DNA from: Moraxella ovis
Lineage (GTDB): Bacteria > Pseudomonadota > Gammaproteobacteria > Pseudomonadales > Moraxellaceae
DNA length: 64,000 nucleotides
NCBI RefSeq assembly: GCF_900453105.1
Contig: NZ_UGPW01000001.1
Location: 310,001-374,000, forward strand
Reading direction: 5' to 3'
Shown: positions 12,328 to 39,901 of the stretch, one piece after another
Position numbering within the stretch: the stretch's first letter is position 1
How the letters are laid out: the number at the start of each line of letters is the position of its first letter
Notes under the pieces: generated by a model
The model's database searches: none
What the model saw: the letters and a program-made list of their open reading frames with translations, nothing else
Told to the model about the DNA's origin: nothing
Translations under genes and position numbers: made by a program

Positions 12328-12333
12328 GGGCGG

Positions 12334-18898: not shown

Positions 18899-20569
<1,671 letters not shown>

Positions 20570-20827
20570 ATACATTCCTTAAATCGCTTGTGGGCAGGGG
20601 CTGCCAACTGGCTTTTATTGATTAAAAATAACAAAATACGGGAAATTTCATTATTTTACCAACATCAGATTTTTAAGCAAGTCAATTTATCCAATTAATC
20701 AGAGATTTGCGCGCATGCGATGATAATTTGTAAAAAATTGTGGCGAATGATTGTTGGGATGATTGATTTTTTGGGGTTAATTCAGATACAATTAATCCAA
20801 ATCTAGCCTAATGATTCAGGTGATATA

Positions 20828-22301: not shown

Positions 22302-22403
22302 GCCAAATGTAGAAAAATGTAAATATGCATGGATTGGCATTGTCAAAGCGTTCAAAATTTGGTCTAATGGTATCAGACCAAAACAACCAAAAAGGAGATG
22401 ACC

Positions 22404-22577
22404 ATGTCAGAATCAAAGCTAAATGAACAAATCAAGAAATTCGATGAGCTGCAAGACAGCATGCACGAAGCTGAAAAAAACCGCACGCTAGAAGAGCAAG
22501 TGGCCTACCTAAAATCACAAGGCATTGACCCATCGAAATCCTATGCTAAATGGGACGACGACCAAGAAGAGGAGTGA
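22404..22577 (+). CDS. Small charged helical protein, 57 residues
   Basis: A short open frame starting MSESKLNEQIKKFDELQ and ending WDDDQEEE, with an excellent ribosome site AAGGAG 8 bases before the ATG and a terminator 47 bases after the stop. The middle (about 5-38) is a heptad-like amphipathic helix likely to form a coiled coil; the C-terminus is strongly acidic. I do not recognise the family. The ribosome site, codon use and following terminator argue that it is real. It lies after murI on the same strand. Confidence 0.72.
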   Translation: MSESKLNEQIKKFDELQDSMHEAEKNRTLEEQVAYLKSQGIDPSKSYAKWDDDQEEE

Positions 22578-22623
22578 TGGCTTACCGTCTGATGCAATGA
22601 GTGCATAATTCTAAATTCGATAT

Positions 22624-22654
22624 AAAAAGCCCAATCGTAGTGATTGGGCTTTTG
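22624..22654. terminator. Bidirectional terminator
   Basis: Stem AAAAGCCCAATC / GATTGGGCTTTT with a 5-base loop, between the small gene and the convergent transglycosylase gene. Confidence 0.87.
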
Positions 22655-22667
22655 TCTGTTTTTTAGA

Positions 22668-24110
22668 TTAGTTTGGTACTAATGAAATGGTGCCATCAGC
22701 ATTCAACACACGGCGATACGTCTTAGGTGCAACCGTCTGAGCTGGTACTTGAATGGTGCGTACCGGCGCATAAGTCGGCTGAGCTGGACGCGGCTGAGCT
22801 TGTGCAGGCGCGACCGATGGTGCTTGTTGTACGACAGGGCGTACTACTTGAGCAGGCTGGGCGACTGGATTGACTTGAGCTGAGTTAGGGTTAGTGCTGA
22901 CGCGGCTTGTGATTAAGCGATGGAATTTTTGACCTGCGCGACCATCTGGACTAACACCCGCTTGTCTTTGATAATCCATGATGGCGCGGCGTGTATTATC
23001 GCCAATGATGCCATCGACTTTACCGATGTCGTAGCCTGCATTTAGCAGTGCTTGCTGAATTTCTTTGGCTTCACGGCGGCTGATGCCAGGATCGTCAGTT
23101 GGCCAAGGGGTGACAAAATTGGTATTCGTATCAGAATTCTCAATCAACGTCGATAGATGAGCGATGGCAAGTGCATAGCTCTCTGATGCGTTATAAGAAT
23201 AGAAGGTATCGAAGTTCTTACCAACCAAGAACGCAGGACCTTGGCGACCTGCAGGCAGTAGCAGTCCTGCCGATGCCATGTTATTCGGTAATGGGCGACC
23301 ATCTGGTAGGGTGATGCCTTGATTCTGCCAGTGGCTGATGGATTTTTTGGCAGTGCGTCCGCTTGAACCTGTGTAGCCGTTTAGGCGGACTTCATAGCCC
23401 CATGGCTCGCCTGTACGGTAGCCACGTTTGGTTAGGAAATTGGCGGTACTGGCAAGCGCGTCTGCCTTAGAATTCACCAAGTCCTTACGTCCATCGCCGT
23501 CAAAATCCACCGCCAATTCCAAAAAGGTGCTCGGCATGAACTGCGTCTGTCCGAATGCACCTGCCCATGAACCTGTCATGTCAGATGGGCGGATGTCGCC
23601 GTTTTGGACGATTTTGAGTGCGCTGGCAAATTCACCGCGAAAATAGCTCTGACGACGATCAAAGCAAGACAACGTCGCTAGGCTGGTAAATAGGTTCTTG
23701 CCACCTAAGGTCTGACCAAAATTACTCTCAACGCCCCACACGCCAAGCACGTGTTCAGGCTTCACACCATAGCGCGACTCGATGCGTCGCAGCACGTCGG
23801 CCTGCTCAGCACGAGCTGCCAGACCATCTGCCACACGCTCACTGTCAACAAGTGATGCGTGATAATCCCACGGGTCTTTTTTAAATTCGGGTTGATAGTT
23901 TAGTGAGCGGATAACGCTTGGGTCAGGTTCGCTAGGTCGATACATCTCAAAGGTGCTGCTAGAGATGCTGCGAAAGGCAGATGAATGCTTTAGATTATCT
24001 AGGCACTGCTGGAACTGTGCATTTGACAGATAAGGCAGATCATTGGCCTGCACGCTCGAGAATGCGCCGATGCTTGCTAAGGTAAGGCTGATTTTGGTTA
24101 AGGTTTTCAT
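22668..24110 (-). CDS. Lytic murein transglycosylase (MltB family) with peptidoglycan-binding domain
   Basis: A 480-residue secreted enzyme that cleaves glycan strands to 1,6-anhydro products. A signal peptide (about 1-22, ending SVQA) is followed by the SLT_2/MltB catalytic domain (about 40-330) with the catalytic glutamate in GVWGVESNFG, then a PG_binding_1 domain (about 340-400, DIGKVDGIIGDNTRRA) and a Pro/Gln/Val-rich low-complexity tail. No lipobox, so it is soluble periplasmic rather than a lipoprotein. AGGA lies 6 bases before the chosen ATG; an upstream in-frame start lacks a ribosome site and spoils the signal peptide. Confidence 0.9.
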   Translation of the reverse strand: MKTLTKISLTLASIGAFSSVQANDLPYLSNAQFQQCLDNLKHSSAFRSISSSTFEMYRPSEPDPSVIRSLNYQPEFKKDPWDYHASLVDSERVADGLAARAEQADVLRRIESRYGVKPEHVLGVWGVESNFGQTLGGKNLFTSLATLSCFDRRQSYFRGEFASALKIVQNGDIRPSDMTGSWAGAFGQTQFMPSTFLELAVDFDGDGRKDLVNSKADALASTANFLTKRGYRTGEPWGYEVRLNGYTGSSGRTAKKSISHWQNQGITLPDGRPLPNNMASAGLLLPAGRQGPAFLVGKNFDTFYSYNASESYALAIAHLSTLIENSDTNTNFVTPWPTDDPGISRREAKEIQQALLNAGYDIGKVDGIIGDNTRRAIMDYQRQAGVSPDGRAGQKFHRLITSRVSTNPNSAQVNPVAQPAQVVRPVVQQAPSVAPAQAQPRPAQPTYAPVRTIQVPAQTVAPKTYRRVLNADGTISLVPN

Positions 24111-24235
24111 AATTGTCCTAAAAATGGCAAAAGTAGCTATAAAGTACAAAATTTTTGCCCATTAAAAAAGTAAAATTGATAAAATCAACCGATGGGCAAG
24201 ATTTGAGTAAGGTATCGGCTGATTTTTGAGCTTGT

Positions 24236-25612
24236 TTAGAGATTTTGTGCGATTTTTTGGCTGTGGCGTTCAAGATACCACAACAAGAAAACCGCCGCCA
24301 CCGCCAGAGAAATCACAAGCGCCATCCAGAATCCATAGATGCCCATGTCATAATGAAATGCCAAAAAATACCCTGGAATCAGGCCACAGCCCCAGAATGC
24401 GATGAGATGAATCACCATCGGAACGTTTGTGACCTTGTAGCCGCGCAGGGCATAGCTTGCCACGCATTGAATGGCATCGACCAGCTGGAATGCCGCAGCG
24501 AATAAAATCACGGTCGCAGCGATACCAATCACCGTCAGATCGTCGGTATACATGTCCGCCAATGGATAACGCAGAACAATCAAAAACGCCGCCGTGACGA
24601 ATGAGACAACGATGGCAGATGAGATGGCGACACCTGAGACGTAGCGTGCGCGTTTTGGTTTTTGTTGCCCTAGATAGTAGCCGGTGCGTACGGTCGAGGC
24701 GATGCCCATGCTCTGAGGCAGCATAAAGATAAGACTGGTCAGGCTAATCACGATCTGCTGGGCAGCGACATAGTTCTCCGTATCGCCACTAAGACGCGCC
24801 ACCAAGAACATGATGCAGGTAAATAAGCTAACTTCAATAAAAAAAGACAAACCAATTGGTGCGCCTAGGCGGGTAATCTCGATGAAGGTTTTTAGGTTGG
24901 GCGCGGTGATTTTATCTGTTAGACCAAACGGCTTAAAATACACGTCTTTGGCGATATAAATAGCCAAAACGATGGCATTCACCCAAAATACGACCGCAGT
25001 CGCCAAGCCGCAGCCAGCACCGCCAAGCGCAGGCATGCCAAATTTACCATACACAAAAATCCAATTCAAAGGAATGTTAAGCGCAAAGCAAATCCAGCTG
25101 ACGATCATGATTGCACGAGGGCGATTAAGACTAGATGCATAAGCATGTAGCGCACGATGCACCATGGCGGCAGGCATGGCAAGCCCAATAAACCAAATAT
25201 AGCTCTCGGTAATGGCAAGCGTCTCTTGGCTTAAATCAAAAAACGCCTTAAATGGCGCGATCGCTACCCACATCGCCAGCATCCCAATGATGCCCATCAG
25301 TAGCCCATACCACAGACCTTGACGTCCCATCTCACCAATCTCATGAGTGGCTTTGGCGCCGTGCTGCTGAGCGATCATGGGGTTAAGCGCGCTCATCACG
25401 CCCATCAAGGTCACATAGACAGTAATGAACAGGCTGCTGCCCAGCGCTACCGCTGCTAAGTCTCCCTTGCCTGCACCACCTGCCATGACGGTATCGACGA
25501 AACTCGTGCCGACTTGGGCAACCTGAGCCAGCAGCATGGGCAGGGCGAGCGCGATGAGGGTTTTTAGTTCTTTTTTGTAGGTGTTGATAGAATAGGCAGT
25601 GACGTCTAGCAT
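24236..25612 (-). CDS. MATE-family multidrug efflux transporter (NorM-like)
   Basis: A 458-residue inner-membrane protein with twelve predicted membrane segments, in two homologous halves typical of MATE exporters (LALPMLLAQVAQVGTSFVDTVMAG in the first). The family extrudes cationic drugs in exchange for sodium or protons. The ATG giving MLDVTAYS is chosen as the closest to family N-termini; no clear ribosome site supports it and an in-frame ATG 48 bases upstream exists. Single gene, and the last gene before the GATC-free block. Confidence 0.9.
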   Translation of the reverse strand: MLDVTAYSINTYKKELKTLIALALPMLLAQVAQVGTSFVDTVMAGGAGKGDLAAVALGSSLFITVYVTLMGVMSALNPMIAQQHGAKATHEIGEMGRQGLWYGLLMGIIGMLAMWVAIAPFKAFFDLSQETLAITESYIWFIGLAMPAAMVHRALHAYASSLNRPRAIMIVSWICFALNIPLNWIFVYGKFGMPALGGAGCGLATAVVFWVNAIVLAIYIAKDVYFKPFGLTDKITAPNLKTFIEITRLGAPIGLSFFIEVSLFTCIMFLVARLSGDTENYVAAQQIVISLTSLIFMLPQSMGIASTVRTGYYLGQQKPKRARYVSGVAISSAIVVSFVTAAFLIVLRYPLADMYTDDLTVIGIAATVILFAAAFQLVDAIQCVASYALRGYKVTNVPMVIHLIAFWGCGLIPGYFLAFHYDMGIYGFWMALVISLAVAAVFLLWYLERHSQKIAQNL

Positions 25613-25949
25613 GATGAGCCGAATGTGATGAATGGGGTGAATTTCGCCAATGCAGATCAAAAAACAGATGAAATTCGTTGGTGTGTAGTATAAAGAAAAT
25701 CGCTCAAAAAGTCCACGTAAAGCCCAATCGAATCTATGATAAATAAATACAAAAACAGGACAGTATATCCACCTTAAATGTGAGCACTAACACAACGGAC
25801 GCGAATAAAGAAAAAATTCGGATTGATTATTGTCAATTTATACTTCTAAAGTAGTATGCCGCGCCCTATTAGATGGATGACGATTGCTGTTTGTTTTGTT
25901 AGACTTAGATTACACCCATAGCCGAGGCAACGCCCAGCCGATTAACATG
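25613..25949. promoter_or_regulatory. MATE-moaA intergenic region
   Basis: A 337-base divergent region with no gene. It holds an FNR-type box at 25823-25836 and a TAGTAT (25852-25857) that could be a -10 for moaA. The last GATC before the GATC-free block is at 25655. Confidence 0.5.
25823..25836 (+). promoter_or_regulatory. FNR/Anr-type box upstream of moaA
   Basis: TTGATTATTGTCAA matches TTGAT-N4-ATCAA with one mismatch. With TAGTAT as -10 it would lie about 40 bases upstream of transcription start, the class II activating position. Confidence 0.6.
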
Positions 25950-26999
25950 AAAACGTCCGTCCCCACCTTCCACGCCAAAGCCCTCTTCGCTGACATGGGC
26001 GGGCAAGGCTCACACACCCAACTTACCCCCACCCCACTTGTGGACGGATTTAACAGACAGCTGACCTACCTACGCCTATCGGTTACCGACTTTTGTAACT
26101 TTCGCTGTGATTACTGCTTGCCGAACGGCTATCAAGGCAAACGAGTTGATGACGAGCTGACACTTGCCGAGATTGACACGCTTTTTAACGGCTTTGTCAG
26201 TCTTGGTACAAAAAAAGTACGTCTGACAGGCGGAGAGCCATCCGTTCGCCGTGATTTGGCGGACATCATCGCCCTTGCCAAACAGCATGGCATTGCCAAA
26301 ATCGCCATCTCATCAAACGGCTACAAACTTGCCAAACACCTATCATCTTGGCAAAACGCTGGGCTTAATCAATTAAATCTTAGCATTGACAGTTTTGATA
26401 AAGACGTATTCAAAAAAATCACAGGCTTTGATATATTGCCTACGCTCTTAAATGACGTGGATAAATTATTACAAACGACCGACATTAAATTGAAAATGAA
26501 CGGTATTTTAATGCACGATACCGCTTATGATAATTTATTATCCGCCCTTGATTTTGTCAAAGAGCGTCCTGTTACTTATCGCTTTATTGAATTTATGCAA
26601 ACCAGTGATAATGCCGATTTGTTTTTTGCTCAAAATCAAACCGCCCAGTTTATCAAAGACTACCTTGTTACACATGGCTGGCAACCCAAAACTAAAGCCC
26701 AAGACGATGGACCTGCCATTGAATACATCCACCCTGATTATATAGGCAGTATTGGCATTATTGAGCCGTATGCCAAAAACTTTTGTGATAGTTGCAATCG
26801 CTTAAGAGTCAGCAGTCTTGGCAAAGTGCATTTGTGCTTATTTGATTCTCAAAATTATGACATTCGCCCTTATCTTGCCACACAAGATAAAAAAGGGCTA
26901 ATGACAGCACTAAAAGGCTTAATGCCAATCAAGCCTGAACACCATTATTTAGATAGTCATAGCGGTATGATGAATAATTTATCGCTGGTGGGTGGTTAG
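25950..26999 (+). CDS. moaA: GTP 3',8-cyclase MoaA (molybdenum cofactor step 1)
   Basis: A 349-residue radical-SAM enzyme that, with MoaC, turns GTP into cyclic pyranopterin. The N-terminal cluster cysteines are Cys50, Cys54 and Cys57 (CNFRCDYC); the C-terminal cluster is in FCDSCNRLRVSSLG...HLCLF. The first 30 residues extend past the usual N-terminus. The C-terminus ends LSLVGG, close to the GG tail typical of MoaA and needed for activity. The ATG at 25950 is chosen; a TTG at 25884 would add 22 residues without support. First gene of a tight ten-gene run. Confidence 0.94.
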   Translation, partial: KTSVPTFHAKALFADMGGQGSHTQLTPTPLVDGFNRQLTYLRLSVTDFCNFRCDYCLPNGYQGKRVDDELTLAEIDTLFNGFVSLGTKKVRLTGGEPSVRRDLADIIALAKQHGIAKIAISSNGYKLAKHLSSWQNAGLNQLNLSIDSFDKDVFKKITGFDILPTLLNDVDKLLQTTDIKLKMNGILMHDTAYDNLLSALDFVKERPVTYRFIEFMQTSDNADLFFAQNQTAQFIKDYLVTHGWQPKTKAQDDGPAIEYIHPDYIGSIGIIEPYAKNFCDSCNRLRVSSLGKVHLCLFDSQNYDIRPYLATQDKKGLMTALKGLMPIKPEHHYLDSHSGMMNNLSLVGG

Positions 27000-27046
27000 T
27001 TATATCTTATGATATGATATGGCTTTTAATGTAAAGGTGTTCAATC

Positions 27047-27748
27047 ATGACCGCAGAGACAATCACACAAGCAGATGATTTGCCTAGACTTGTTGGCACA
27101 TTAACCGATGTACGAGCAGGCAAGGTAGAGCCGTTCGTGCGTGGCGTGAGTGCCATTAACAAAATAGCGATTGACGGTAGCATGACGGTAAATCTGCTGG
27201 GTCTGTCCGAGGATGAGCAGGCAGAACATAAATTTCATGGCGGACATCTAAAAGCCCTGCATCAAATGCCCATCACGACCTATGACGCCATCAATCAAGA
27301 ATTTAATTTAAACGCACCCATCGGCTCATTGGGCGAGAACCTAACCGTGATGACATCAGGCGAACCGATGTGCGAGGATAATGTCTGCATTGGCGACATT
27401 TATCAGTTTGGCGAGGGCGATGATAGCGTACAGGTGCGTCTGATACAGCCACGTCGCCCCTGCTATAAGATTAATGACAAGCTTGGCAACGCAGGCGTGT
27501 CCTATTTCGTGGCACGAGAGGGCATTGCAGGGTGGTATTATCAGGTGGTGCGAACAGGGGTGCTTCATGCGGGCATGCCTGTTTATCTTATTGACCGCCC
27601 TTATCCGTTTGCTAATTTGACGGCGCTGTGGTCATTGATTAACCAAAAATCTGGCATTGAGGCACAGATGGCGGATAAATGGCTTGGTATTGACTGTCTA
27701 GAAATCAGCTGGAAAAAGAAAATCCACAACAAACGTAAAGCTCATTGA
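27047..27748 (+). CDS. MOSC-domain protein (YiiM-like)
   Basis: A 233-residue protein with a MOSC domain, a beta-rich fold that carries molybdenum cofactor sulfur chemistry. The conserved cysteine lies in QPRRPCYKIND, as in E. coli YiiM, whose role is reduction or detoxification of N-hydroxylated bases using Moco. KFHGGHLKALH and GSLGENLTV are also family segments. Its position second in a Moco operon fits a Moco-dependent function. Whether it works as an enzyme or in cofactor maturation is not decided by sequence. Confidence 0.85.
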   Translation: MTAETITQADDLPRLVGTLTDVRAGKVEPFVRGVSAINKIAIDGSMTVNLLGLSEDEQAEHKFHGGHLKALHQMPITTYDAINQEFNLNAPIGSLGENLTVMTSGEPMCEDNVCIGDIYQFGEGDDSVQVRLIQPRRPCYKINDKLGNAGVSYFVAREGIAGWYYQVVRTGVLHAGMPVYLIDRPYPFANLTALWSLINQKSGIEAQMADKWLGIDCLEISWKKKIHNKRKAH

Positions 27749-27782
27749 TATTTTATTTATTTTAATTTAAAAGGGTAATCCT

Positions 27783-28349
27783 ATGTGCAAGCTTTGCAAT
27801 AACCCCAATCACATCGCTCCACCAAAAGCGGACAAGCCATTTATCCCGCTAAACATCGCCGTGCTGACCGTCTCGGACACTCGCACGCTGGACGAAGACA
27901 CATCAGGGCAGTATCTGGCAGACAGTATCGTCAAAGCAGGGCATACGCTCATTGACCGCAAGCTCACTACAGATGACATCTATCAAATCCGTGCCGTGAT
28001 GAGTGCGTGGATTGCTGACCCCAATGTTCATGCCGTCATCAGCACGGGCGGTACGGGCTTTTATCATCGGGACAATATGCCAGAGGCGGTGTCGGTGCTG
28101 TTTGACAAAGAAGTGGCAGGCTTTGGCGAGATGTTTCGCCTACTCTCCAAAGATGACATCGGTATGTCCACCTTGCAATCTCGGGCGGTGGCAGGTATGG
28201 CGAACAGCACGGCGATTTTTTGCTTGCCGGGTTCGACAGGGGCGTGCCGTACGGGCTGGGAAGGCATTTTGTTAGAACAGCTTGATAACCGCACACGCCC
28301 ATGCAACTTTGTGCCACATCTTATGCGTCAAAATCCCACGCACGGCTAA
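27783..28349 (+). CDS. moaB: Molybdenum cofactor biosynthesis protein MoaB
   Basis: A 188-residue MoaB/Mog-fold protein, probably molybdopterin adenylyltransferase. The signatures VSDTRTLDEDTSGQYL, ISTGGTGFYHRDNMPEA and CLPGSTGACRTGWE match MoaB, and the C-terminus QLDNRTRPCNFVPHL is close to E. coli MoaB. An N-terminal addition beginning MCKLCNN carries a CxxC pair not needed for the fold. Ribosome site AAGGG. The gene is 4 bases before mobA. Confidence 0.9.
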   Translation: MCKLCNNPNHIAPPKADKPFIPLNIAVLTVSDTRTLDEDTSGQYLADSIVKAGHTLIDRKLTTDDIYQIRAVMSAWIADPNVHAVISTGGTGFYHRDNMPEAVSVLFDKEVAGFGEMFRLLSKDDIGMSTLQSRAVAGMANSTAIFCLPGSTGACRTGWEGILLEQLDNRTRPCNFVPHLMRQNPTHG

Positions 28350-28352
28350 GCG

Positions 28353-29045
28353 ATGGGCAAAGACATGAGCGTGATTGGTCTATTGATTTTGGCAGGGGGC
28401 AATTCTCGCCGTATGGGTTCGCCCAAGGCATTATTACCTTTGCCAAATCATCAGACATTGCTTAATTTTCACATCAATAATGCCAATATGTTAAATCTGC
28501 CGATATTGCTTGGCGATAATGATAAAGGGTTTTTGGATAAGTGTTTTTCAAACAATACCAATTCAATCAATTCATCTGTTGTTATCATTGATGACTATAT
28601 CAAAAATGCAGGGGCGTTATCGTGTCTTTTATCGGCTTTTCATTATTGTCAAACTCATTTTGTTAATCAAGATAAAACAACGGACAATCATTTATCCGAT
28701 AAATTTTTGATGGTGATTAGCTGTGATAATTTGATTGATGTTGGTGAGATTTTTAATTTATTAAAAAAGGCTAATTTAAAAAATCATCATGGAGCATGTT
28801 TAAAAGACGTATCGGGCGATAAAGATTATCCGTTATTAGGCCGTTATTCGTTGTCTTTATATGATGAATTAAAAATATATTTGGATAAGGGCGAGCGGTC
28901 TGTGATGAAATTTTTAAAGGATAAAGATATTTGCCAAATATCCATGCCAACAGATTGGCGAAATCTTGCCAATTTTAATACGCCCGATGAATTTAAATTG
29001 GCATTGTCGTATTTTCAAAACAACCCACAAAAAGAGCAATCATGA
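28353..29045 (+). CDS. mobA: MobA-like molybdenum cofactor nucleotidyltransferase
   Basis: A 230-residue NTP-transferase-fold protein with the nucleotide-binding signature LILAGGNSRRMGSPKALL near the N-terminus, the metal-binding Asp in VISCDN, and the family segment DYPLLGRYS. It probably adds GMP to Mo-molybdopterin; a MocA-type cytidylyl role cannot be excluded. The gene is clearly more AT-rich than its neighbours in the same operon. It overlaps moaC by four bases (ATGA). The start is uncertain between 28353 and 28365. Confidence 0.8.
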   Translation: MGKDMSVIGLLILAGGNSRRMGSPKALLPLPNHQTLLNFHINNANMLNLPILLGDNDKGFLDKCFSNNTNSINSSVVIIDDYIKNAGALSCLLSAFHYCQTHFVNQDKTTDNHLSDKFLMVISCDNLIDVGEIFNLLKKANLKNHHGACLKDVSGDKDYPLLGRYSLSLYDELKIYLDKGERSVMKFLKDKDICQISMPTDWRNLANFNTPDEFKLALSYFQNNPQKEQS

Positions 29046-29515
29046 ATCTTACCCATTTAGACAAAGACGGCAACATCACCATGGTAGACGTGGGCGACAA
29101 AATCGCCACCGCACGCACCGCGAGTGCACAGGGCAAGGTGGTGTTCGCCCCTGACGTGTACCGCCACATCAAAGACACAGACGGCATGACCAAAAAGGGC
29201 AGTATCATTCAAACCGCCCACATCGCAGGGATTATGGCAGGCAAAAAAACGCATGAGCTGATACCCTTATGCCACGCCTTGCCCCTTGACACCATCAAGA
29301 TGAGCTTTCGTTATGCCGATGATGAGTGTGCCATCGTGGTGGGGGCGACCGCCAAAGTTACCCATAAGACAGGCGTTGAAATGGAAGCCCTGACCGCCGT
29401 GTCGGTGGCGTGCCTTACCATCTATGACATGACCAAGGCAATCAGCCACGACATCACGATAACTGATATTCATCTTATCCAAAAAACAGGGGGAAAATCC
29501 GATTATGACAAATAA
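29042..29515 (+). CDS. moaC: Cyclic pyranopterin monophosphate synthase MoaC
   Basis: A 157-residue enzyme that acts with MoaA to form cyclic pyranopterin monophosphate. The active-site segments LIPLCHALPLD and KTGVEMEALTAVSVACLTIYDM are intact, including the lysine of IHLIQKTGGKS. Normal length. Start codon overlaps the mobA stop, and its own end overlaps moaD by 11 bases. Confidence 0.96.
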   Translation: MNLTHLDKDGNITMVDVGDKIATARTASAQGKVVFAPDVYRHIKDTDGMTKKGSIIQTAHIAGIMAGKKTHELIPLCHALPLDTIKMSFRYADDECAIVVGATAKVTHKTGVEMEALTAVSVACLTIYDMTKAISHDITITDIHLIQKTGGKSDYDK

Positions 29516-29774
29516 CAATCAACCATTTGATACGATAAGCCTTACCGTGCTGTACTTTGCCAGCCTTGCCGAGCAGGCAGGTAAGGATAGCGAGACTGTG
29601 CAGACTGATAGTGATGACTTGACGGTAATTTATGCCAAATTGTCCACCAAATACGGCTTTGATTTGCCCCAAGACAAGGTAGCAGTTGCCATCAATCACG
29701 AGTTTGGCAGTTGGGGCGATGGCGTGTCATCGGGCGATACAATTGCCTTCATTCCGCCTGTGGCAGGGGGCTGA
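29505..29774 (+). CDS. moaD: Molybdopterin synthase small subunit MoaD
   Basis: An 89-residue ubiquitin-like sulfur carrier ending PPVAGG; the C-terminal glycine is adenylated by MoeB and then thiocarboxylated. FASLAEQAGKDS and SGDTIAFIPP are typical. The start lies within the end of moaC and moaE begins one base after its stop, so the three genes are translationally coupled. The MoeB-type activating enzyme is not in the window. Confidence 0.92.
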   Translation: MTNNNQPFDTISLTVLYFASLAEQAGKDSETVQTDSDDLTVIYAKLSTKYGFDLPQDKVAVAINHEFGSWGDGVSSGDTIAFIPPVAGG

Positions 29775-29775
29775 T

Positions 29776-30264
29776 ATGAAAACGGTTCATGATAATGCGT
29801 TAATCACAAGCCTGCCCAAGGATGAAGCCTATGAGCTTGCCCGAGTGGACGGTTTTGCTTTGTCGGATTGCCCCATTGATGATAGATTGTTAAAATCGTA
29901 TCTACTAAACGACACGGCAGGGGCGCTCGTCACGTTTGAAGGGTGGGTGCGTAACCATAATAATAATCGAGCGGTGAGCCGTCTGACTTATTATGGCTAT
30001 GAACAGCTTGCCATCAACCACGGAGCGAAGCTCATCCGTGAAGCCAAAGCCAAATTTGACATCACACACGCAGTCGCCATTCATCGCATTGGCGAGCTTG
30101 GCATTGGCGATATGGCGGTGTGGATTGGGGTGTGTGCGTCTCATCGCACGCCTGCTTTTCACGCTTGTGAATGGTTACTGAACGCCATCAAAGCCGACAT
30201 TCCTGTGTGGAAGCAGGAATTTTATGATGACGACAGCAGTTTGTGGTTGTCTAATAATGGTTAG
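29776..30264 (+). CDS. moaE: Molybdopterin synthase large subunit MoaE
   Basis: A 162-residue catalytic subunit that inserts two sulfurs into the cyclic pyranopterin. Family segments FEGWVRNHNNNR, HRIGELGIGDMAVWIGV, SHRTPAFHACEWLL and IPVWKQEFY (with the catalytic lysine) are present. The ATG at 29776 is chosen because an earlier in-frame start would lie inside moaD. Gap to modA is about 17 bases. Confidence 0.94.
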   Translation: MKTVHDNALITSLPKDEAYELARVDGFALSDCPIDDRLLKSYLLNDTAGALVTFEGWVRNHNNNRAVSRLTYYGYEQLAINHGAKLIREAKAKFDITHAVAIHRIGELGIGDMAVWIGVCASHRTPAFHACEWLLNAIKADIPVWKQEFYDDDSSLWLSNNG

Positions 30265-30281
30265 GGGTAGTTGGGGTGAAT

Positions 30282-31043
30282 ATGACAAAATTTAGCCTAA
30301 TGGCGTGTGGTGTGCTATTTTTGACAGCTTGCCATGACGACAAACATGCCACGCCTGCCCCGACCAATACCATCACACTCTACGCCGCCGCTAGCGTGAG
30401 CGATGTGATGAATGAGCTTATCAAAGACTATGAAGCCACCCATCACGTCAAAGTCAACGTCTCTTATGCAGGGTCATCAACCTTAGCCAAGCAGATTGAG
30501 CAGGGGGCAAGGGCAGATGTCTTTGTATCAGCAGACATGGACTGGGCGGAATATCTTGTTAAAGCCGACAAAGCACAAGCAAGCACACCACTCCTAAACA
30601 ACCGCCTTGTGCTTATCTATCCCAAAAATACGCCCATCACAATTGACATGACTGCACAGACATTGGGTGGGCAGTTTGATGGCAAGCTCTGCACAGGGCA
30701 GACCGACAGCGTGCCTGTGGGCAAATACGCCAAGCAAGCCCTAATCGCCAAAAACTGGTGGCAAGGCATACAAGGCAGATTGGTGGAGACATCGGATGTA
30801 CGCACCGCCCTAAACTTTGTCGCTCGGGGCGAATGCATGCTTGGGATTGTCTATGCCACCGATGCCAAGATGAGCGATGATGTGGACATTGCTGGCGAAT
30901 TTGCCACGACCGACCACGCCCCCATCGTCTATCCTGTGGTACAACTCTCCCAAAGTGCTAACGCTTATGCTTTTTATGATTACCTACAAAGCCCCACCGC
31001 CAAAACGGTGTATCAAAAATACGGCTTTGGTGTGGTAGAATAG
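30282..31043 (+). CDS. modA: Molybdate-binding protein ModA (lipoprotein)
   Basis: A 253-residue substrate-binding protein of the molybdate ABC importer. It carries a lipobox LTAC near residue 18, so it is lipid-anchored rather than free in the periplasm. Binding segments YAAASVSDVMNEL, YAGSSTLAKQIEQGARADVFVSA and a later TSDVRTAL are intact. The ATG at 30282 has GGGG 6 bases upstream; a GTG six bases earlier is less likely. It precedes modB by 25 bases. Confidence 0.93.
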   Translation: MTKFSLMACGVLFLTACHDDKHATPAPTNTITLYAAASVSDVMNELIKDYEATHHVKVNVSYAGSSTLAKQIEQGARADVFVSADMDWAEYLVKADKAQASTPLLNNRLVLIYPKNTPITIDMTAQTLGGQFDGKLCTGQTDSVPVGKYAKQALIAKNWWQGIQGRLVETSDVRTALNFVARGECMLGIVYATDAKMSDDVDIAGEFATTDHAPIVYPVVQLSQSANAYAFYDYLQSPTAKTVYQKYGFGVVE

Positions 31044-31068
31044 AGCCTTTGATTAACCGCCATTATCC

Positions 31069-31752
31069 ATGCTAACCCCTGATGAAATCGCCATTTTAAC
31101 CTTATCATTCAAGGTTGCTTTTTGTTGTTTGCTTATCAACATCGTGCCTGCCGTATTGGTGGGCTATTGGCTTGCTCGTAAGGAATTTTGGGGCAAGTCG
31201 CTTGTTGAGACGGTAATTTTTTTGCCCCTTGTGTTGCCCCCTGTCGTGCCAGGGTATCTTTTGCTTGCTGTATTTGGTAATCAAGGGCTGATTGGTAAGC
31301 ACCTATCAGCTTTGGGGCTAGAATTTGCTTTTAATTGGAAAGGGGCGGTGCTGGCAAGTGCGGTGATGGGCTTTCCGCTTATGGTGCAGTCGGTACGCCT
31401 TGCCATGCAGATGGTGGATGAGCGACTTGAAATGACCGCTCGCACGCTTGGGGCGTCTGATATGGCGGTATTTTTTGGGATAACGTTGCCCCTTGCGTGG
31501 GGTGGGATTTTGGTGGGGGCAATACTGTCATTTTGTCGCAGTCTTGGCGAATTTGGGGCGACCATCACCTTTGTGGGCAATGTGGCAGGCGAGACTCGCA
31601 CGTTGCCCCTTGCCATTTATAGCCTACTCCAACAAGCCGATAGCGACCATGCCATCATGCGACTTTTGATTATGTCGGTGGCGGTGGCGTTTTGTGCGTT
31701 GTGGTTTTCGCAGTGGTATACCCGCCATCAGTCCGCCAAATTACAAGGATAA
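31069..31752 (+). CDS. modB: Molybdate ABC transporter permease ModB
   Basis: A 227-residue inner-membrane permease with five or six membrane segments and the ABC-coupling EAA loop ARTLGASDMAVFFGITLPLAWGG. FCRSLGEFGATITFVGNVAGETRTLPLAIY is characteristic of ModB, split here into the two conserved parts GEFGATI and TRTLPLAIY. It ends three bases before modC. Confidence 0.94.
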   Translation: MLTPDEIAILTLSFKVAFCCLLINIVPAVLVGYWLARKEFWGKSLVETVIFLPLVLPPVVPGYLLLAVFGNQGLIGKHLSALGLEFAFNWKGAVLASAVMGFPLMVQSVRLAMQMVDERLEMTARTLGASDMAVFFGITLPLAWGGILVGAILSFCRSLGEFGATITFVGNVAGETRTLPLAIYSLLQQADSDHAIMRLLIMSVAVAFCALWFSQWYTRHQSAKLQG

Positions 31753-31755
31753 GCC

Positions 31756-32367
31756 ATGTTTCATTGTCAATTTCGCCTAAGTCTTGGCAAAAAAACGCTT
31801 GATGCCCACCTTGTCAAATCCTCCCCTGTGGTGGGCATTTTTGGACGGTCGGGAGCGGGCAAAAGTAGCATTTTGCACGCTTTGGCAGGGATTATCACGC
31901 CCACAGAGGGATATATTATCATTGATGGGCAGGTGTGGTTTAATGATAAGACCAATCTGTCACCCCAAAGTCGGCGTGTGGGGCTTGTCTTTCAAGACGC
32001 CCAGCTGTTTCCGCATAAATCGGTCATGGATAATCTGCTGTTTGGCTACAACAACATCACGCCAAGTGATAGGCGATTTAGCCCTGATGAGATTATTGAA
32101 TTACTAAAACTTGATACCCTAACCCACCGCCACCCAAAAAACCTATCAGGGGGTGAAAAACAACGTGTCGCCTTGGGGCGTGCATTGCTATACTCGCCAA
32201 AGCTCCTGTTACTCGATGAGCCATTATCCGCCTTAGACCGTGAGCATAAGGATGAGATTTTGCCGTTTTTTGAACATATTCGTGATACGCTGGCAATCCC
32301 TATGCTGTACGTTAGCCACGACAAAAGCGAGATTGAGCGATTGACAGATGAGTTGCTTTATTTATAA
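31756..32367 (+). CDS. modC: Molybdate ABC transporter ATPase ModC, short form
   Basis: A 203-residue ATPase powering the importer. Walker A is GRSGAGKSS (about 30-38), the signature LSGGEKQR, Walker B LLLLDEPLSALD and the switch histidine in YVSHDKSE. It ends at the ATPase domain: E. coli ModC is about 350 residues and carries a C-terminal molybdate-binding (TOBE/MOP) domain, which is absent. The stop is a clean TAA, with no remnant of the missing domain in the next 13 bases before the convergent gene. Confidence 0.92.
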   Translation: MFHCQFRLSLGKKTLDAHLVKSSPVVGIFGRSGAGKSSILHALAGIITPTEGYIIIDGQVWFNDKTNLSPQSRRVGLVFQDAQLFPHKSVMDNLLFGYNNITPSDRRFSPDEIIELLKLDTLTHRHPKNLSGGEKQRVALGRALLYSPKLLLLDEPLSALDREHKDEILPFFEHIRDTLAIPMLYVSHDKSEIERLTDELLYL

Positions 32368-32380
32368 AATTTTTGGTCAA

Positions 32381-33004
32381 TTACATCTCATACACAAACG
32401 CATCTGCCAGTTTATCAAAGCCATTGACGCTGACCTTTAGGTCGTGAATCAGCCCATCTTCAAGCCCATAAATCCAGCCGTGAATGGACAATTTTTGTCC
32501 CCTGTGCCATGCGTTTTGGACGATGGTGGTGTGGCAGACGTTGGTAACTTGGCGTTTGACATTGAGCTCACAGAGCAGGTCAGTCTGCTCATCAAGGGTG
32601 AGATTGGTAAATTTATCCAAATACTGATAATGAATGCCTTTGAGTGAGCGTAGCCAATTGTCAATCAGCCCAAACTCTTGGTGCGACAGTGCCGACCGCA
32701 CCCCACCGCAGCCATAATGCCCACAGACGATGATGTGTTCAACCTTTAGCATATCCACCGCATATTGTAGGGCGGATAGTAGATTCATGTCGGTGGCGAC
32801 GACCATGTTCGCCACGTTGCGATGGACAAACAGCTCCCCTGGCATCAGTCCCACCACTTCATTGGCAGGCACACGACTGTCAGAACAGCCAATCCAAAAA
32901 TACTTGGGCGACTGCTGGCGGGCAAGGCGTGGAAAATAATCAGGGTCTCGGGCAGACAGACTCTCTGCCCAGAAACGGTTGGATTCTAATAGGTCGGATA
33001 ACAT
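32381..33004 (-). CDS. can: Beta-class carbonic anhydrase
   Basis: A 207-residue zinc enzyme interconverting carbon dioxide and bicarbonate. Zinc ligands Cys40, His96 and Cys99 (with Asp42 of CSDSRVPANE and GHYGCGG) are present. Normal length for E. coli Can-type enzymes. The ATG giving MLSDLLESN is chosen; one 12 bases upstream is possible and neither has a clear ribosome site. It converges on modC with no terminator between, and is divergent from the CRP/FNR gene across a palindrome. Confidence 0.93.
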   Translation of the reverse strand: MLSDLLESNRFWAESLSARDPDYFPRLARQQSPKYFWIGCSDSRVPANEVVGLMPGELFVHRNVANMVVATDMNLLSALQYAVDMLKVEHIIVCGHYGCGGVRSALSHQEFGLIDNWLRSLKGIHYQYLDKFTNLTLDEQTDLLCELNVKRQVTNVCHTTIVQNAWHRGQKLSIHGWIYGLEDGLIHDLKVSVNGFDKLADAFVYEM

Positions 33005-33017
33005 GATGAATGCCAAA

Positions 33018-33038
33018 TAAAGTCAAATTATGACTTTA
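33018..33038. promoter_or_regulatory. 21-base perfect palindrome between can and the CRP/FNR gene
   Basis: TAAAGTCA / TGACTTTA arms around AATTA form a perfect inverted repeat just upstream of the carbonic anhydrase start and about 75 bases before the regulator gene. It looks like an operator; it is not an FNR box (no TTGAT half-sites). Confidence 0.55.
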
Positions 33039-33111
33039 AAATAGCACACCCGCCCAAATCTACCATACCAAATACAGGCAGGATGGCTTAGCCAAAGGGG
33101 GTAGTTTCGGT

Positions 33112-33987
33112 GTGGGGATCAGCACTTTTGGGGAATGTGGTTTTTGGGATGATTTGGCTAAGATGGCACAAAATAGCCATACCAATAACAGCATGAAATT
33201 AAACGACATATCTCATCAGGCGCATCTATTGGCGCTAGAAAGCCATCCCATCTTTGCGCTGCTGCCAAATACCCAGCAGGGCATCGATATCAAAAAATCC
33301 CTATTGTCGATGGTGTCTATCCACGAATACACCAAAGGTGAGATCGTGTTCTTGCAGCATAGCCCTGTGGTGAATTTATATTTTTTATTGGATGGGCGAG
33401 TGGATTGTCATCGGCAGCTGCCCAGCGGCCAAGAATCGCTCATCGCGCAGTATGACAGCATCGGACTTATTAACGAAAGCGTGCTTTGGGATTGGCAAAA
33501 GACCGATCGTGAAGACTTATCTGCACTTCAAAACAAAGAAACCATCGCTGCTAAGCATTCGGCGCTGCTTAGCACCAAAGGCGGTATCCATCAGCTCACT
33601 GCCACCAGTCGCGGTACGTCACTCGTGGCAAGCCTGTGTGTGGAGAGTTATTTTAAGACGCTTGATGAGTTTGAGCTTGGCGGGCTGTTAAAATGGTTCT
33701 GCGAATGCATCAGCAAGCGACTGCATCGTCACATTGTCAGCAGTGATTTGCTGGCTTTCGTGCAGGCAAAATCTAAGCTGAGCTATTATTTTATCACGCA
33801 TTATCCGATTGATAAGCCTTTTAAGATGCTATGCACCCAAAAGCAATTGGCGGGACAAATTGGTCTGCGCCCAGAGACTTTATCGCGCACCTTAAAAGAA
33901 ATGATGGCAGCAAACCTCATCAAAAAAGAAGGCGCTACCTATCAAATCATCGACATCGAAGGGCTGCTGGCTCTTGTTAGCGAATAA
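33112..33987 (+). CDS. CRP/FNR-family transcription regulator (DNR/Anr-like, no N-terminal cysteine cluster)
   Basis: About 290 residues: an N-terminal cyclic-nucleotide-binding-like beta domain (HEYTKGEIVFLQHS, YFLLDGRVDCHRQLPSGQES), a long dimer helix, and a C-terminal helix-turn-helix whose recognition helix reads RPETLSRTLKEM. Glu, Ser and Arg in ETLSR match the FNR residues that read TTGAT. The cysteine cluster that binds 4Fe-4S in FNR is missing, as in DNR- and NNR-type nitrogen-oxide regulators. FNR-type boxes occur before moaA and narK1. The start is uncertain: the GTG used here, or ATGs at 33163 or 33193. Ends 1 base from convergent narL. Confidence 0.85.
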   Translation: MGISTFGECGFWDDLAKMAQNSHTNNSMKLNDISHQAHLLALESHPIFALLPNTQQGIDIKKSLLSMVSIHEYTKGEIVFLQHSPVVNLYFLLDGRVDCHRQLPSGQESLIAQYDSIGLINESVLWDWQKTDREDLSALQNKETIAAKHSALLSTKGGIHQLTATSRGTSLVASLCVESYFKTLDEFELGGLLKWFCECISKRLHRHIVSSDLLAFVQAKSKLSYYFITHYPIDKPFKMLCTQKQLAGQIGLRPETLSRTLKEMMAANLIKKEGATYQIIDIEGLLALVSE

Positions 33988-33988
33988 G

Positions 33989-34648
33989 CTAGCTTGGTAA
34001 ATGATTAACCGCCCACACGGCAGCTTCCACGCGCGTGCGAAGTCCGATTTTTGCCAATATGTGCTTAACGTGTACTTTGACGGTGGATTCGGCAATGCCT
34101 AGCTTATTACCGATCATCTTATTGCTCATGCCGTCTTTGATCATGTGAAGCACTTGTAATTCTCTGTCGGTAAGGTCTAGCGTGGCTTCTGATTGATTGG
34201 GCTTTCGCATGGCAGCCGCTAGAATGGGCGCAAGTGCAGGGCTGATCACCAGCTCACCGCGCAGGATTCGGCGAATATTGCCGATGATTTCCTCTGGCTC
34301 CATGTCCTTTAATAGATAGCCATCAGCACCCAGCTCTAGCGCGTCTTGCACATCTTTTAGATTGTCTGACACTGTGAATAATAGCACCTTTACGTCAATC
34401 TCGCGTTCGCGCACGGCTTTTAGTGTCTCAATGCCATTCATGATGGGCATGTTGTGATCTAATACGATAAGATTGACATCGTGCTGGGCTAAGAAGTCAA
34501 GCGCTTCACCACCATGATTGGCTTGTCCTATGACACTAACGTCAATCTCTAGATTTAGTAAATCAGACAGTCCGCGTCTTAGCATCGGATGATCATCGAC
34601 GAGCAGTAGTTTGGCGGGATTTTCGGCGGTGTATATCTTTTGACTCAT
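33989..34648 (-). CDS. narL: Nitrate/nitrite response regulator NarL
   Basis: A 219-residue regulator: receiver domain (about 10-130) with VDDHPMLRRGL, the phospho-Asp in LIVLDHNMPIMNG and Lys in YLLKDMEPEE, then a LuxR-type helix-turn-helix (about 150-215) with LTDRELQVLHMIKDGMSNK and AESTVKVHVKHI. It is close to E. coli NarL and cotranscribed with narX, 42 bases upstream. It should activate nitrate respiration genes when NarX sees nitrate. Confidence 0.93.
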   Translation of the reverse strand: MSQKIYTAENPAKLLLVDDHPMLRRGLSDLLNLEIDVSVIGQANHGGEALDFLAQHDVNLIVLDHNMPIMNGIETLKAVREREIDVKVLLFTVSDNLKDVQDALELGADGYLLKDMEPEEIIGNIRRILRGELVISPALAPILAAAMRKPNQSEATLDLTDRELQVLHMIKDGMSNKMIGNKLGIAESTVKVHVKHILAKIGLRTRVEAAVWAVNHLPS

Positions 34649-34690
34649 GAGTTACCTTTTGGCTGATATTGCAATATTGGCTTTATTAAT

Positions 34691-36706
34691 TTAATTGGTC
34701 ACTTGATGATTTAATTCGTCATCGAGTGCCTGAGTTAGGGTGTTGATTTCGTCATCGCTCCAGCTGTTTAGTTTGGGTTCTTGGCGTGGTGATTTGGATT
34801 GTTTTAAGAAAAACTGCGGCATGAATCGTACCGAGACTTGTGTGCCGTGCGGTACGGCGTTAGAGATATTAATCATGCCGCCAAGGTTTACGGCGCGCTC
34901 ACCCATGGTACTAAGCCCGTAATGCCCTTGTTTTTGTTTGTCGCTTTGTTCGATGCCGATGCCATCGTCTTTGATTATCATGACGACATCTTGGCTGGCG
35001 CTGTCTTGGTATAGTGCTAGGCTTACGTGACTGGCCTTGGCGTGTTTTAGGATGTTGGAGAGTGCCTCGCGCATGATCTGTAGTAGGTCAATCTGCTCTG
35101 AAGCGGACAGATGCACGGTCAGAATCCGATTGTCAAACGCGGTGCTGAATCCGCCTTTTTGGGCAAATTCATCCATCGTCGCAGACAGGATCTCATTAAA
35201 ATCCCCGCCATCGATGCGCAGGCGGAATGTGGTCAATAGATCGCGCAGCTGTCCATAGGCGGCATTTAGCCCTTCGGTCATCTGAGTGAGTAGCTGAGCC
35301 TGTTTGGCATGTGATTCTGATAGAAGGGCACGAGTCTCATCATCGAGCGAGTTTTGGCTTTGCTGCATGAGTGTTTTTAGCATGCTTAGCTGTATCTTTA
35401 GATATGATAATGATTGAGCGATGGAGTCGTGCAGTTCACGCGCTAGGGTGTTGCGTTCTTCTGACAGTATCAGCTCTTGTTCTTGTTTCTTCTTTTCTTT
35501 TGAGACGAGTGCCAGCGCAACCAAGTTGGCCAGTGCAATCAATAAATCTTCTTGAGGTAAGAATTGATTGTCGTCCAGATTCACCACATCGATTTTTAGT
35601 TGGCTTTCTTTGGCGTTATTGACGAGCAGCTCACCCCAGCGTCTGCCCGATGCTTCGATAGGGATGATGCGTGTGTTGTTGTTCGCTTTTAATTGGCATT
35701 CATCGCAATCCTCAGGAGTACAAAACTCAGGAATCTCTTTATCCGACAGCGATAGGATGATGTTGTTCTGATTGTCTTCTTCGTGTAGGCATAATGACAT
35801 CTCGCTGTTGGGGAGCAGAGTGGAGAATTCTTTAACTAGAGATTGAAGTTGTAGGCTAGATAGGTTGCCTGTGACGATTTTTTGAGCGAAGTTATACAGC
35901 GCATAGATCGCCTGATTGGCCTGCGTAAGATGTGCGGTAGTGCGGCGAACCTCGCTTTTTAATTGGCTTTGATGCGTGTTAATAGTGCCAAGCATCGCAC
36001 TCATCGCATCGGAGAGCTGATTGATTTCTCGGTAGCCCTTGACTGACAGATTGCTACTGGCAAGCTTTAGACTGCCTTGCTTGTAGGAGTTGGTGGCCTC
36101 GGTGAGTCGTTTTAGGGGGATTAGGGCGTTTTTATTTAGCTCGTGCATGCCGATGATCATGGCGGTCAAGATCAGCAGTAGCGTACCGATGTGCAGGTAT
36201 TGCTGCTGCTGGCTACGCACTTCGCTGCGTTTTTGAATGTCTAGCACGAAGTTATTAACTTCGGTCAGATAAGCCAGCGACGATTCATAAAAGCCGATAT
36301 TATCTTCTGATAGCAGGCGTGGTTGTAGATTGTCATGCCATAGATTTTCTATTTTTATTAAGGATTGATCGATGTTGTCGTGTTGGTTGCCGGCTAGGGA
36401 TTGGTAATTGCGCAGCTGTGACAGGCGCATCAGCATGTCTTCGTTCAATGCCTGAATGTCAATGGGTGTGCCTTTGGCATCGATGCTTAGGGCGTGACTG
36501 ATGCGGTAGGTTGCCATGCGAATGGCACCGGCTTGGTTGATGGCTTGGGCGTCCATCTTGGCGACTTTAGATAAAGAAAAACTCATCGCGCCTAAGATTG
36601 CGATGATCAGCGTAATAAACATCACCATCGTCCACGCACGCTTGACAAAGGAATGATGAACATCAAATCGCTTCAAGATACCGCTCATCGTGTCATTATT
36701 CGCCAT
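34691..36706 (-). CDS. narX: Nitrate/nitrite sensor histidine kinase NarX
   Basis: A 671-residue inner-membrane sensor. TM1 (about 25-45), periplasmic helical domain with the P-box AGAIRMATYR (about 59-70) that binds nitrate, TM2 (about 170-190), HAMP, a central module with the cysteine group CTPEDCDEC, HisKA_3 with ARELHDSIAQSLSYLK and a HATPase (REALSNILKHAKAS, YGLSTMGERA). The ATG with AGGGG 6 bases upstream is chosen. First gene of a narX-narL operon, divergent from narK1. Confidence 0.94.
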   Translation of the reverse strand: MANNDTMSGILKRFDVHHSFVKRAWTMVMFITLIIAILGAMSFSLSKVAKMDAQAINQAGAIRMATYRISHALSIDAKGTPIDIQALNEDMLMRLSQLRNYQSLAGNQHDNIDQSLIKIENLWHDNLQPRLLSEDNIGFYESSLAYLTEVNNFVLDIQKRSEVRSQQQQYLHIGTLLLILTAMIIGMHELNKNALIPLKRLTEATNSYKQGSLKLASSNLSVKGYREINQLSDAMSAMLGTINTHQSQLKSEVRRTTAHLTQANQAIYALYNFAQKIVTGNLSSLQLQSLVKEFSTLLPNSEMSLCLHEEDNQNNIILSLSDKEIPEFCTPEDCDECQLKANNNTRIIPIEASGRRWGELLVNNAKESQLKIDVVNLDDNQFLPQEDLLIALANLVALALVSKEKKKQEQELILSEERNTLARELHDSIAQSLSYLKIQLSMLKTLMQQSQNSLDDETRALLSESHAKQAQLLTQMTEGLNAAYGQLRDLLTTFRLRIDGGDFNEILSATMDEFAQKGGFSTAFDNRILTVHLSASEQIDLLQIMREALSNILKHAKASHVSLALYQDSASQDVVMIIKDDGIGIEQSDKQKQGHYGLSTMGERAVNLGGMINISNAVPHGTQVSVRFMPQFFLKQSKSPRQEPKLNSWSDDEINTLTQALDDELNHQVTN

Positions 36707-37017
36707 GATACCCCTAAAGAATTGCCATGATGAATTGGTGTTGATTTTTAGCAATTATTCCAAAAATCCTGCCAGAATTCATCTTTTAAATCCATGAAAA
36801 ATATGGTGTTTTTATAATATAATTCCGTATTTTTTTCCATACCACTAAAGTATTAAGCATGCATCATAACAAAAAATAACCAAAGGAAAAATTGATTAGA
36901 ATCAATTTTTTTAGAATAAATATTTTTTATCATAAGACTAATAAATGTGCAAAGTTTGTAAGGCTTTGGCAATAATTTTCTTAATCTTAATAACGCCAAC
37001 CTTCTGATAAGGAGAAG
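36707..37017. promoter_or_regulatory. narX-narK1 divergent regulatory region
   Basis: About 310 AT-rich bases without a gene. It holds a perfect FNR-type box (36892-36905). Candidate NarL heptamers are TACCCCT at 36709-36715, next to the narX start, and a near match TACCACT near 36841. Confidence 0.6.
36892..36905 (+). promoter_or_regulatory. Perfect FNR/Anr box upstream of narK1
   Basis: TTGATTAGAATCAA matches TTGAT-N4-ATCAA exactly. Its centre is about 120 bases before the narK1 ATG, so a start near 36940 would place it at the class II position. Confidence 0.8.
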
Positions 37018-38283: not shown

Positions 38284-38297
38284 GCATGACTGATATA

Positions 38298-38331
38298 GGC
38301 AGACAATCTTTATGGGTTGTCTGTTTTTTTA
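38298..38331 (+). terminator. narK1 terminator
   Basis: Stem CAGACAA / TTGTCTG with a 10-base loop and a run of seven T. Confidence 0.8.
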
Positions 38332-38506
38332 TTGTCTAAATAAATTCATCTACCCCCAAAGTATCATAGTTGGCTGGGTTTGTCAGTCATTAGGATAAGC
38401 GAAATTTTGCGCAAATCTGTCTACAATGTCAATCATCAAAAATCCTTAACTTTAATCAATCCAAGTGAGTGATCTGCAGATCGCATCATTCCCAAAAGGG
38501 GGAAAT

Positions 38507-39853: not shown

Positions 39854-39870
39854 TCGCACCATAAAGACGT

Positions 39871-39901
39871 CAAAAACAGCTCTCCATGGGCTGTTTTTTG
39901 T
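39871..39901 (+). terminator. narK2 terminator
   Basis: Stem AAAACAGC / GCTGTTTT with a 9-base loop and T-run. Confidence 0.82.

Follow-up and report, generated by a model that had tools for sequence, protein, structure and literature searches.

The 64,000-nucleotide stretch of the Moraxella ovis chromosome analysed here (assembly GCF_900453105.1, contig NZ_UGPW01000001.1, positions 310,001 to 374,000; hereafter the window, numbered from its first letter) harbours a block of moa, mod and can genes at 25659-33116 in which the tetranucleotide GATC is absent altogether. The DNA of this block would very probably have been brought by homologous recombination from the GATC-avoiding group of M. caprae, M. 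lacunata and M. bovis into the lineage of M. ovis, which is sister to M. bovoculi. The kind of event is ordinary, interspecies recombination being known in this group at other loci, and the case is unusually clear.

The GATC-free block and the origin of moaA-moaE

The lack of GATC between 25659 and 33116, noticed in a preliminary description made from the sequence of the window, was confirmed by counting: consecutive sites lie at 25655 and 33117, the 7458 bases between them contain none, and the rest of the window contains 215, with 2404 and 1776 bases as its next-longest gaps. The chance expectation, put there at about 29, is indeed 28.4 at the rate of the rest of the window (P of zero sites = 5e-13) and 39.9 from the block's own trinucleotides (Markov estimate), and the numbers quoted for the neighbouring MATE gene (norM, six sites) and for rapA (many; 19 were counted) were correct. 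The described change in word use was also found, GGGG/CCCC being enriched (59 seen, 19.7 expected) and GCGC scarce (3 seen, 47.7 expected). GATC is not the only missing word. Similar deficits were seen for CGCG (3, 31.9 expected), TCGA (4, 22.9 expected) and CTAG (4, 16.2 expected), GGCC and CCGG occur once each, and GCWGC has a density of 0.13/kb compared with 2.72/kb in a 400-kb sample of the host chromosome (20 stretches of 20 kb spread over it). The word CCCTTGCC is present in three copies in the block and three in the whole remainder of the window. One word profile spans moa, mod and can. The host sample contains 3.36 GATC/kb, its largest gaps being 7156, 5715, 4408 and 4335 bases (n = 1326 gaps); the gap of 7458 bases is thus the longest in the 464 kb seen, and similar long gaps exist.

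The evidence for import consists of identities and quartet site counts, with one genome per species, taken from 22 genomes of the genus: the host (G000), M. bovoculi 237 (G001), M. caprae DSM 19149 (G002), M. lacunata NCTC10359 (G005), Moraxella sp. VT-16-12 (G010), G011, which is probably M. bovis, the metagenome-assembled genomes (MAGs) G013 (Moraxella Bco_11) and G018, and others. M. caprae, M. lacunata and G011 are referred to as the donor group; the host, M. bovoculi and G013 form the host's clade. Identities quoted for genomes outside both leave short local matches aside (<100 bases for the left flank and modABC).

Over 25893-30266 the host aligns in one piece with each member of the donor group, at 96.6% identity to M. 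caprae, 92.6% to M. lacunata and 91.9% to G011; gene by gene, moaA-moaE is 93.8-99.1% identical to M. caprae. The same genes of G010, G012, G018 and M. boevrei reach 66-79%, and the left-flank genes are at 67-80% outside the host's clade. Set against the 92-97% of the donor group in moaA-moaE, values for the flanks and other relatives are about 64-83%. The flank genes norM, crp, narL, narX and narK1 exceed 84% only in M. bovoculi (97.1-98.3%) and G013 (91.9-93.6%, narK1 uncovered). The moaA-moaE tract is therefore much closer to a distant taxon than its flanks are, its composition is foreign and matches that of the donor, and it is, on this sequence evidence, an import; for modABC no such close taxon was found.

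The GATC survey comprised 6-40 kb per genome other than the host, with 20 of the 22 genomes usable, the host included (G007 reads N and G013 is not in the table). The sampled stretches contain 0.15 GATC/kb in M. lacunata, 0.20 in M. caprae and 0.33 in G011; G008 and G014-G019 are likewise poor (0.15-0.45/kb), G003 and G004 have about 1/kb, and the host, G001, G006, G009, G010, G012, G020 and G021 have 1.95-6.12/kb. GATC avoidance is thus common in the genus and is accompanied by avoidance of CCGG and GGCC, mostly also of GCGC and CGCG. The opposite extreme is represented by G012, whose stretches L193 and L036 are rich in GATC, GCGC and CGCG (observed/expected 1.57, 2.46 and 1.81). The alleles of the moa tract in M. 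caprae, M. lacunata and G011 all lack GATC, and at the pooled donor rate of 0.23/kb the probability of finding none in 7.46 kb is 0.18. Since the donor stretches are GATC-poor and the donor alleles GATC-free, donor composition explains the absence, which is a compositional property of the donors and is not required by the function of the block. High identity alone carries no direction, so that the same signal would have arisen had the transfer gone from the host lineage to M. caprae, M. lacunata and M. bovis. This is scarcely credible, as the words of the tract are those of the donor profile and not of the host, and the three donors, 3-8% away from the host along it, form a group with a depth of its own.

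The features of the block and its surroundings are as follows.

24236 to 25660, reverse strand: norM, left flank, native (profile match and identities)
25655 to 25658: last GATC left of the block (site count)
25661 to 25892: native-looking spacer, with AAAGTAGTATGC (from 25848) in common with the upstream region of the donors' moaA (alignment)
25884 to 26999, forward strand: moaA, GTP 3',8-cyclase, donor alignment from 25893 (TIGR02666, 282.5 bits, slightly under the cut-off)
27047 to 27748, forward strand: a protein which we take to be YiiM-like, of MOSC type (NF008577, under the cut-off)
27783 to 28349, forward strand: moaB (TIGR02667)
28353 to 29045, forward strand: mobA-like nucleoside triphosphate transferase (PF12804)
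29042 to 29515, forward strand: presumably moaC, a family name given without a profile scan (97-99% identical protein in G001, G002, G005, G011 and G013)
29505 to 29774, forward strand: moaD (TIGR01682, slightly under the cut-off)
29686 to 30264, forward strand: moaE, start codon uncertain, reading frame overlapping moaD, 99.1% identical to M. caprae (NF007959, under the cut-off)
30266 to 30267: right end of the M. caprae-like tract, directly behind the moaE stop codon (alignment)
30276 to 31043, forward strand: modA (profile match)
31069 to 31752, forward strand: modB (profile match)
31756 to 32367, forward strand: modC, 203 amino acids (TIGR02142, under the cut-off)
32381 to 33016, reverse strand: can, carbonic anhydrase, 87% identical to M. 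lacunata and M. caprae (profile match and identities)
33112 to 36754: native right flank of crp-like regulator, presumed narL and presumed narX (both named without a profile scan), with 16 GATC in the three reading frames (Crp-like helix-turn-helix match and identities)
33117 to 33120: first GATC right of the block (site count)

Beyond narX the right flank continues with two MFS genes (family match), which we take to be narK. The ModC model has 353 positions, and the modC product, covering no more than positions 3-204, is without the C-terminal part.

The GATC gap does cover moaA to can, as first described, but the alignable import runs from 25893 to 30266 only and begins about 235 bases to the right of the left GATC edge; the spacer at 25661-25883 (one GCGC, two CGCG) is native-looking. 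Whether the edges are intergenic, as was stated, depends on the start codons. With the open reading frames (ORFs) as called, from TTG for norM (24236-25660) and GTG for the crp-like gene (33112-33987), both edge GATCs fall inside the first codons, and with later start codons both become intergenic. At 25848-25859, host and donors have AAAGTAGTATGC in common, in spite of a lack of any match in the DNA beyond it on the upstream side, and this word may be a leader or regulator site. It was considered as a DNA-uptake word and rejected: it precedes moaA in M. caprae, M. lacunata and G011 as well, but the window has no copy besides that at 25848 and the 400-kb sample none at all; a leader element of moaA is more likely. 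No integrase or transposase was found among the 12 ORFs scanned in 24236-33987, a scan that covered neither moaC nor repeats and tRNAs.

The moa and mod genes make and feed the molybdenum cofactor required by nitrate reductase. The 9 of 22 genomes with a MoaC match are also those with a NarG match, which makes a role of the tract in nitrate respiration probable; the narG gene of the host is not in this region (C1:1838020-1841721). Among open-access papers, no title or abstract start mentioning this tract was found, and "nitrate", "molybd" and "GATC" are absent from the available portion of the main text of PMC4752781 and PMC9585708.

The moa tract is a mosaic. With G011 as outgroup, 51 sites unite the host with M. 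caprae, 39 the host with M. bovoculi and 11 M. bovoculi with M. caprae. When the 11 are left out, the other two kinds form 26 runs versus 45 in shuffles, and none of 5000 shuffles gave as few. The host sides with M. bovoculi at all 17 sites of 25899-26145 and with M. caprae at 21 of 23 sites of 29618-30261, and in five of the seven genes of the tract M. caprae is nearer to the host than M. bovoculi is. The divergence of the host from M. bovoculi is 3.1-7.4% per kb over 25.3-31.3 kb as against 1.4-3.7% in the remaining bins; GATC is absent from the block of M. bovoculi as well. The substitutions observed between the two would be expected to yield 11.6 one-sided GATC in the block, where none was seen, and 10.5 in three flank stretches (20300-25660, 33112-36000 and 36000-39800), where 10 were seen. 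The differences in the block are read as exchange with GATC-free alleles, not as mutation in place. Because the signal is mosaic and the GATC-free copy of M. bovoculi diverges more than its own flanks do, moaA-moaE would appear to have been exchanged more than once.

modABC and carbonic anhydrase

In the case of modABC and can the situation is less simple, and a number of observations speak against deriving them from the donor group. Identity of modABC to the sampled genomes outside the host's clade does not exceed 74%. As in the flanks, the nearest modABC and can sequences are those of M. bovoculi, followed by G013; the 87% of can hardly exceeds the 83% of the native-looking narK1. The excess divergence from M. 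bovoculi ends before the block does, the bins over 31.3-33.3 kb being at flank level (2.7 and 2.5%). When the 8000 candidates sharing most words with ModA among 5.8 billion proteins were scored, the best 120 comprised two at 90-91%, taken for the copies of the host's own clade, and others at no more than 65%, with no donor among these matches. For the block as a whole, moa included, the GATC test against G013 is rougher than that against M. bovoculi: 11 sites were seen in two flank stretches where 21.6 were expected, compared with 2 seen and 21.4 expected in the block pieces 25893-29015 and 28939-33111.

The words of the mod part nevertheless follow those of the moa part, with no GATC, GCGC or CGCG where 7.2, 10.2 and 6.1, respectively, were expected. 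From this word composition we infer that modABC-can was imported from an unsampled GATC-poor lineage, perhaps at an earlier time. The mod genes of G013 contain two GATC and one GCGC, as if resident longer. Matches to modABC directly follow moaE in G010, G012 and G018, as in the host.

If one M. bovis-like strain possessing MboI had given all 7.46 kb in a single transfer, the continuous GATC-free stretch and its one word profile would be accounted for, and an MboI-like gene pair does exist in G011 (see below). Such an event seems unlikely, given that identity to the donor group drops from 92-97% in moa to at most 74% in mod and 83-87% in can, that the moa, mod and can loci lie apart in M. caprae (a draft genome), M. 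lacunata and G011, that the moa tract is mosaic, and that M. caprae, closer than M. bovoculi to the host in most genes of the tract, has no DpnII-family nuclease. Another possibility is that no import took place and that native genes are under local selection against GATC or have odd codon use, which agrees with modABC and can having their closest kin inside the clade. For the block as a whole this is very improbable: several unrelated palindromes vanish together while GGGG/CCCC rises, and the moa genes of G012 sit in a 20-kb stretch with 6.95 GATC/kb. It is refuted for moaA-moaE by the 92-97% identity to another species group, and a native origin is possible for modABC-can.

Import from a GATC-avoiding donor, as originally proposed, hence holds for moaA-moaE, while modABC-can is left without a sampled donor. 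The comparison with other Moraxella suggested in the preliminary description divides the block in the same manner, the nearest relatives of moaA-moaE differing from those of the flanks and those of modABC-can being the same sister taxa.

Donor-like patches elsewhere in the chromosome

A word model with two states, whose rates were derived from the host sample and five donor-group stretches and whose words include GATC, marks three segments of the window (26001-33000, 38501-40000 and 56001-57250) and 21 segments of the 400-kb sample. The latter make up 16.6% of the sample, an estimate of donor-like composition and not of proven import, because the words of the model include GATC. The two further patches of the window are listed below.

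38501 to 40000, forward strand: second donor-like patch, over an MFS gene which we take to be narK2 (word model; no donor identified)
56001 to 57250, reverse strand: third donor-like patch, over a mutY-like gene (word model)

Leaving out the block, there are 23 patches, 14 of which supplied the 20 longer proteins that were scanned. These proteins are mostly housekeeping and transport proteins, namely RNase R, Obg, Mfd, a class II tRNA synthetase, a coaBC-like protein, an amino-acid kinase, the mutY-like protein, symporters, ABC proteins and the beta subunit of nitrate reductase; the others are one IS605-type transposase, one protein with a beta-lactamase domain and two without a match.

For a forward test, the host stretch L011:1-16000, picked for two strong patches before any donor match had been seen, was compared with ten genomes. 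In the predicted patch 1-2750, M. caprae is 95% identical over 1-2636, and in the predicted patch 9001-13000 it is 97% identical over 9419-12895; M. lacunata reaches 89-95% and G011 91-94% in these patches, where G006, G010, G012, G018 and G021 have long matches at 69-77%. Between and beyond the patches, donor-group matches of at least 700 bases are at 68-86%. M. bovoculi and, where covered, G013 have the same word profile in the patches. The weight of this test is reduced by its extent, a single 16-kb stretch with 2 of the 21 sample patches, and by the segment 4291-5008 between the patches, which is 85-86% identical in G011 and M. lacunata, 82% in G018 and 80% in G010 (4334-5007). Similar imported patches nonetheless seem to be scattered through the genome, and the notion of a single foreign block has to be abandoned in favour of one among many donor-like patches.

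According to PMC6296526, M. bovoculi has mosaics at rRNA and RTX loci with imports from M. bovis or a close relative. As here, these are short homologous imports, and the recipient is the sister lineage of the host; what is described there are single strains and two loci, whereas here a cofactor-synthesis tract is common to the host, M. bovoculi 237 and a MAG, and many word-marked patches were found, several of them over housekeeping genes. Where related genomes use palindromes oppositely, introgressed tracts can be read from words alone, without a donor sequence. Roughly a sixth of the host chromosome, with core genes among it, may derive from other Moraxella, a matter of relevance for the typing of pinkeye-associated bacteria and for species limits among them.

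Two further segments of the sample may be mentioned. A donor-like patch at L019:15501-20000 covers part of narG together with the gene for the beta subunit of nitrate reductase, which means that the cofactor-dependent enzyme may be imported as well. The 7156-base GATC gap (L018:10549-17705), nearly as long as the block, is marked weakly and in parts by the word model and contains one gene with a beta-lactamase domain.

Restriction genes and GATC avoidance

The search for MboI-, Dam- and DpnI-type genes that had been advised was fruitful. Downstream of valS, G011 carries a Dam-family methylase (PF02086, 253 bits) adjoining a DpnII-family nuclease (PF04556, 320 bits), a putatively MboI-like pair whose target, to judge from the families, would be GATC. 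At the corresponding place in the host (L001:1483-2643 on C1) a truncated Dam-family methylase is followed by a DpnI-type gene. The protein encoded by the latter, with a catalytic PF06044 domain (262 bits) and a winged-helix PF17726 domain (117 bits), is predicted to be a methyl-directed GATC nuclease of DpnI type. In the host, G009 and G021 the first 70-72 residues of the methylase precede DpnI-type genes 98.5-99.6% identical to that of the host. Methylases 83% and 80% identical to that of G011 are present in M. bovoculi 237 and G008, respectively, the distance from valS being about 1 kb greater in G008, together with two opposite-strand ORFs, one of them weakly MutH-like. The other 14 of the 20 valS stretches gave no match to these proteins (that of G019 is short, at a contig end).

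Among the 22 genomes, the DpnII family is present in two (G003, G011), DpnI-type genes in four (G000, G009, G019, G021) and the MutH family in none. GATC density does not simply track DpnI, G019 having 0.30/kb and the other three carriers 2.45-4.25/kb. The DpnII, DpnI and MutH families had no match in M. caprae, where the D12 methylases gave a weak one; M. lacunata gave no DpnII- or DpnI-family match. Since neither nuclease family is seen in these two species, their GATC avoidance may have been left behind by a system since lost. Several palindromes are avoided together, and therefore MboI alone does not explain the avoidance. The suggested MboI-like donor thus has its counterpart in the complete pair of G011, but with M. 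caprae, the nearest sampled donor, lacking the DpnII family, a present-day MboI is not needed. MboII (GAAGA) was also tried as a second mark of M. bovis and found unconvincing: the three sites of the block are few against 13.6 expected from the rest of the window, yet 3.8 are expected from the block's own words.

Selection by DpnI was likewise dismissed as a needed cause of the zero count, which donor composition alone yields at the probability given above, the donors' own alleles being GATC-free. It is conceivable, if rather doubtful, that tracts without GATC are exchanged freely among MboI-type and DpnI-type Moraxella, in that a donor whose GATC is methylated would pass on to a DpnI host only or mainly GATC-free stretches. 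The identity-verified imports contain no GATC (moa), one (L011:1-2636) and none (L011:9416-12895), too few in relation to the donor rate to test such a filter. If true, long-standing GATC avoidance in one group would channel introgression into another. The present host would then exemplify such eased exchange well, as it carries a DpnI-type gene and has apparently received many imports from a GATC-poor group. The genus offers a natural setting for asking whether restriction-site avoidance eases gene exchange.

A cassette mechanism for complementary DpnI/DpnII-type GATC systems was reportedly put forward in a 1986 paper in Cell. Here, too, the site downstream of valS is taken by a DpnI-type gene in some Moraxella and by an MboI-like pair in another; unlike in that literature, the alternation is between species, and a third arrangement exists in M. 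bovoculi 237 and G008. PMC4687349 names Moraxella among the genera with both DpnI and DpnII kinds and supposes that strains differing in GATC methylation exchange DNA more easily when GATC is avoided. The model outlined in that paper, in which restriction-site avoidance outlasts the restriction system, resembles the state of M. caprae and M. lacunata; unlike there, avoidance is used here as a marker of imported tracts. The M. ovis genome CP011158.1 is reported in PMC11037411 to have a DpnI-like fusion nuclease beside a frame-shifted methylase.

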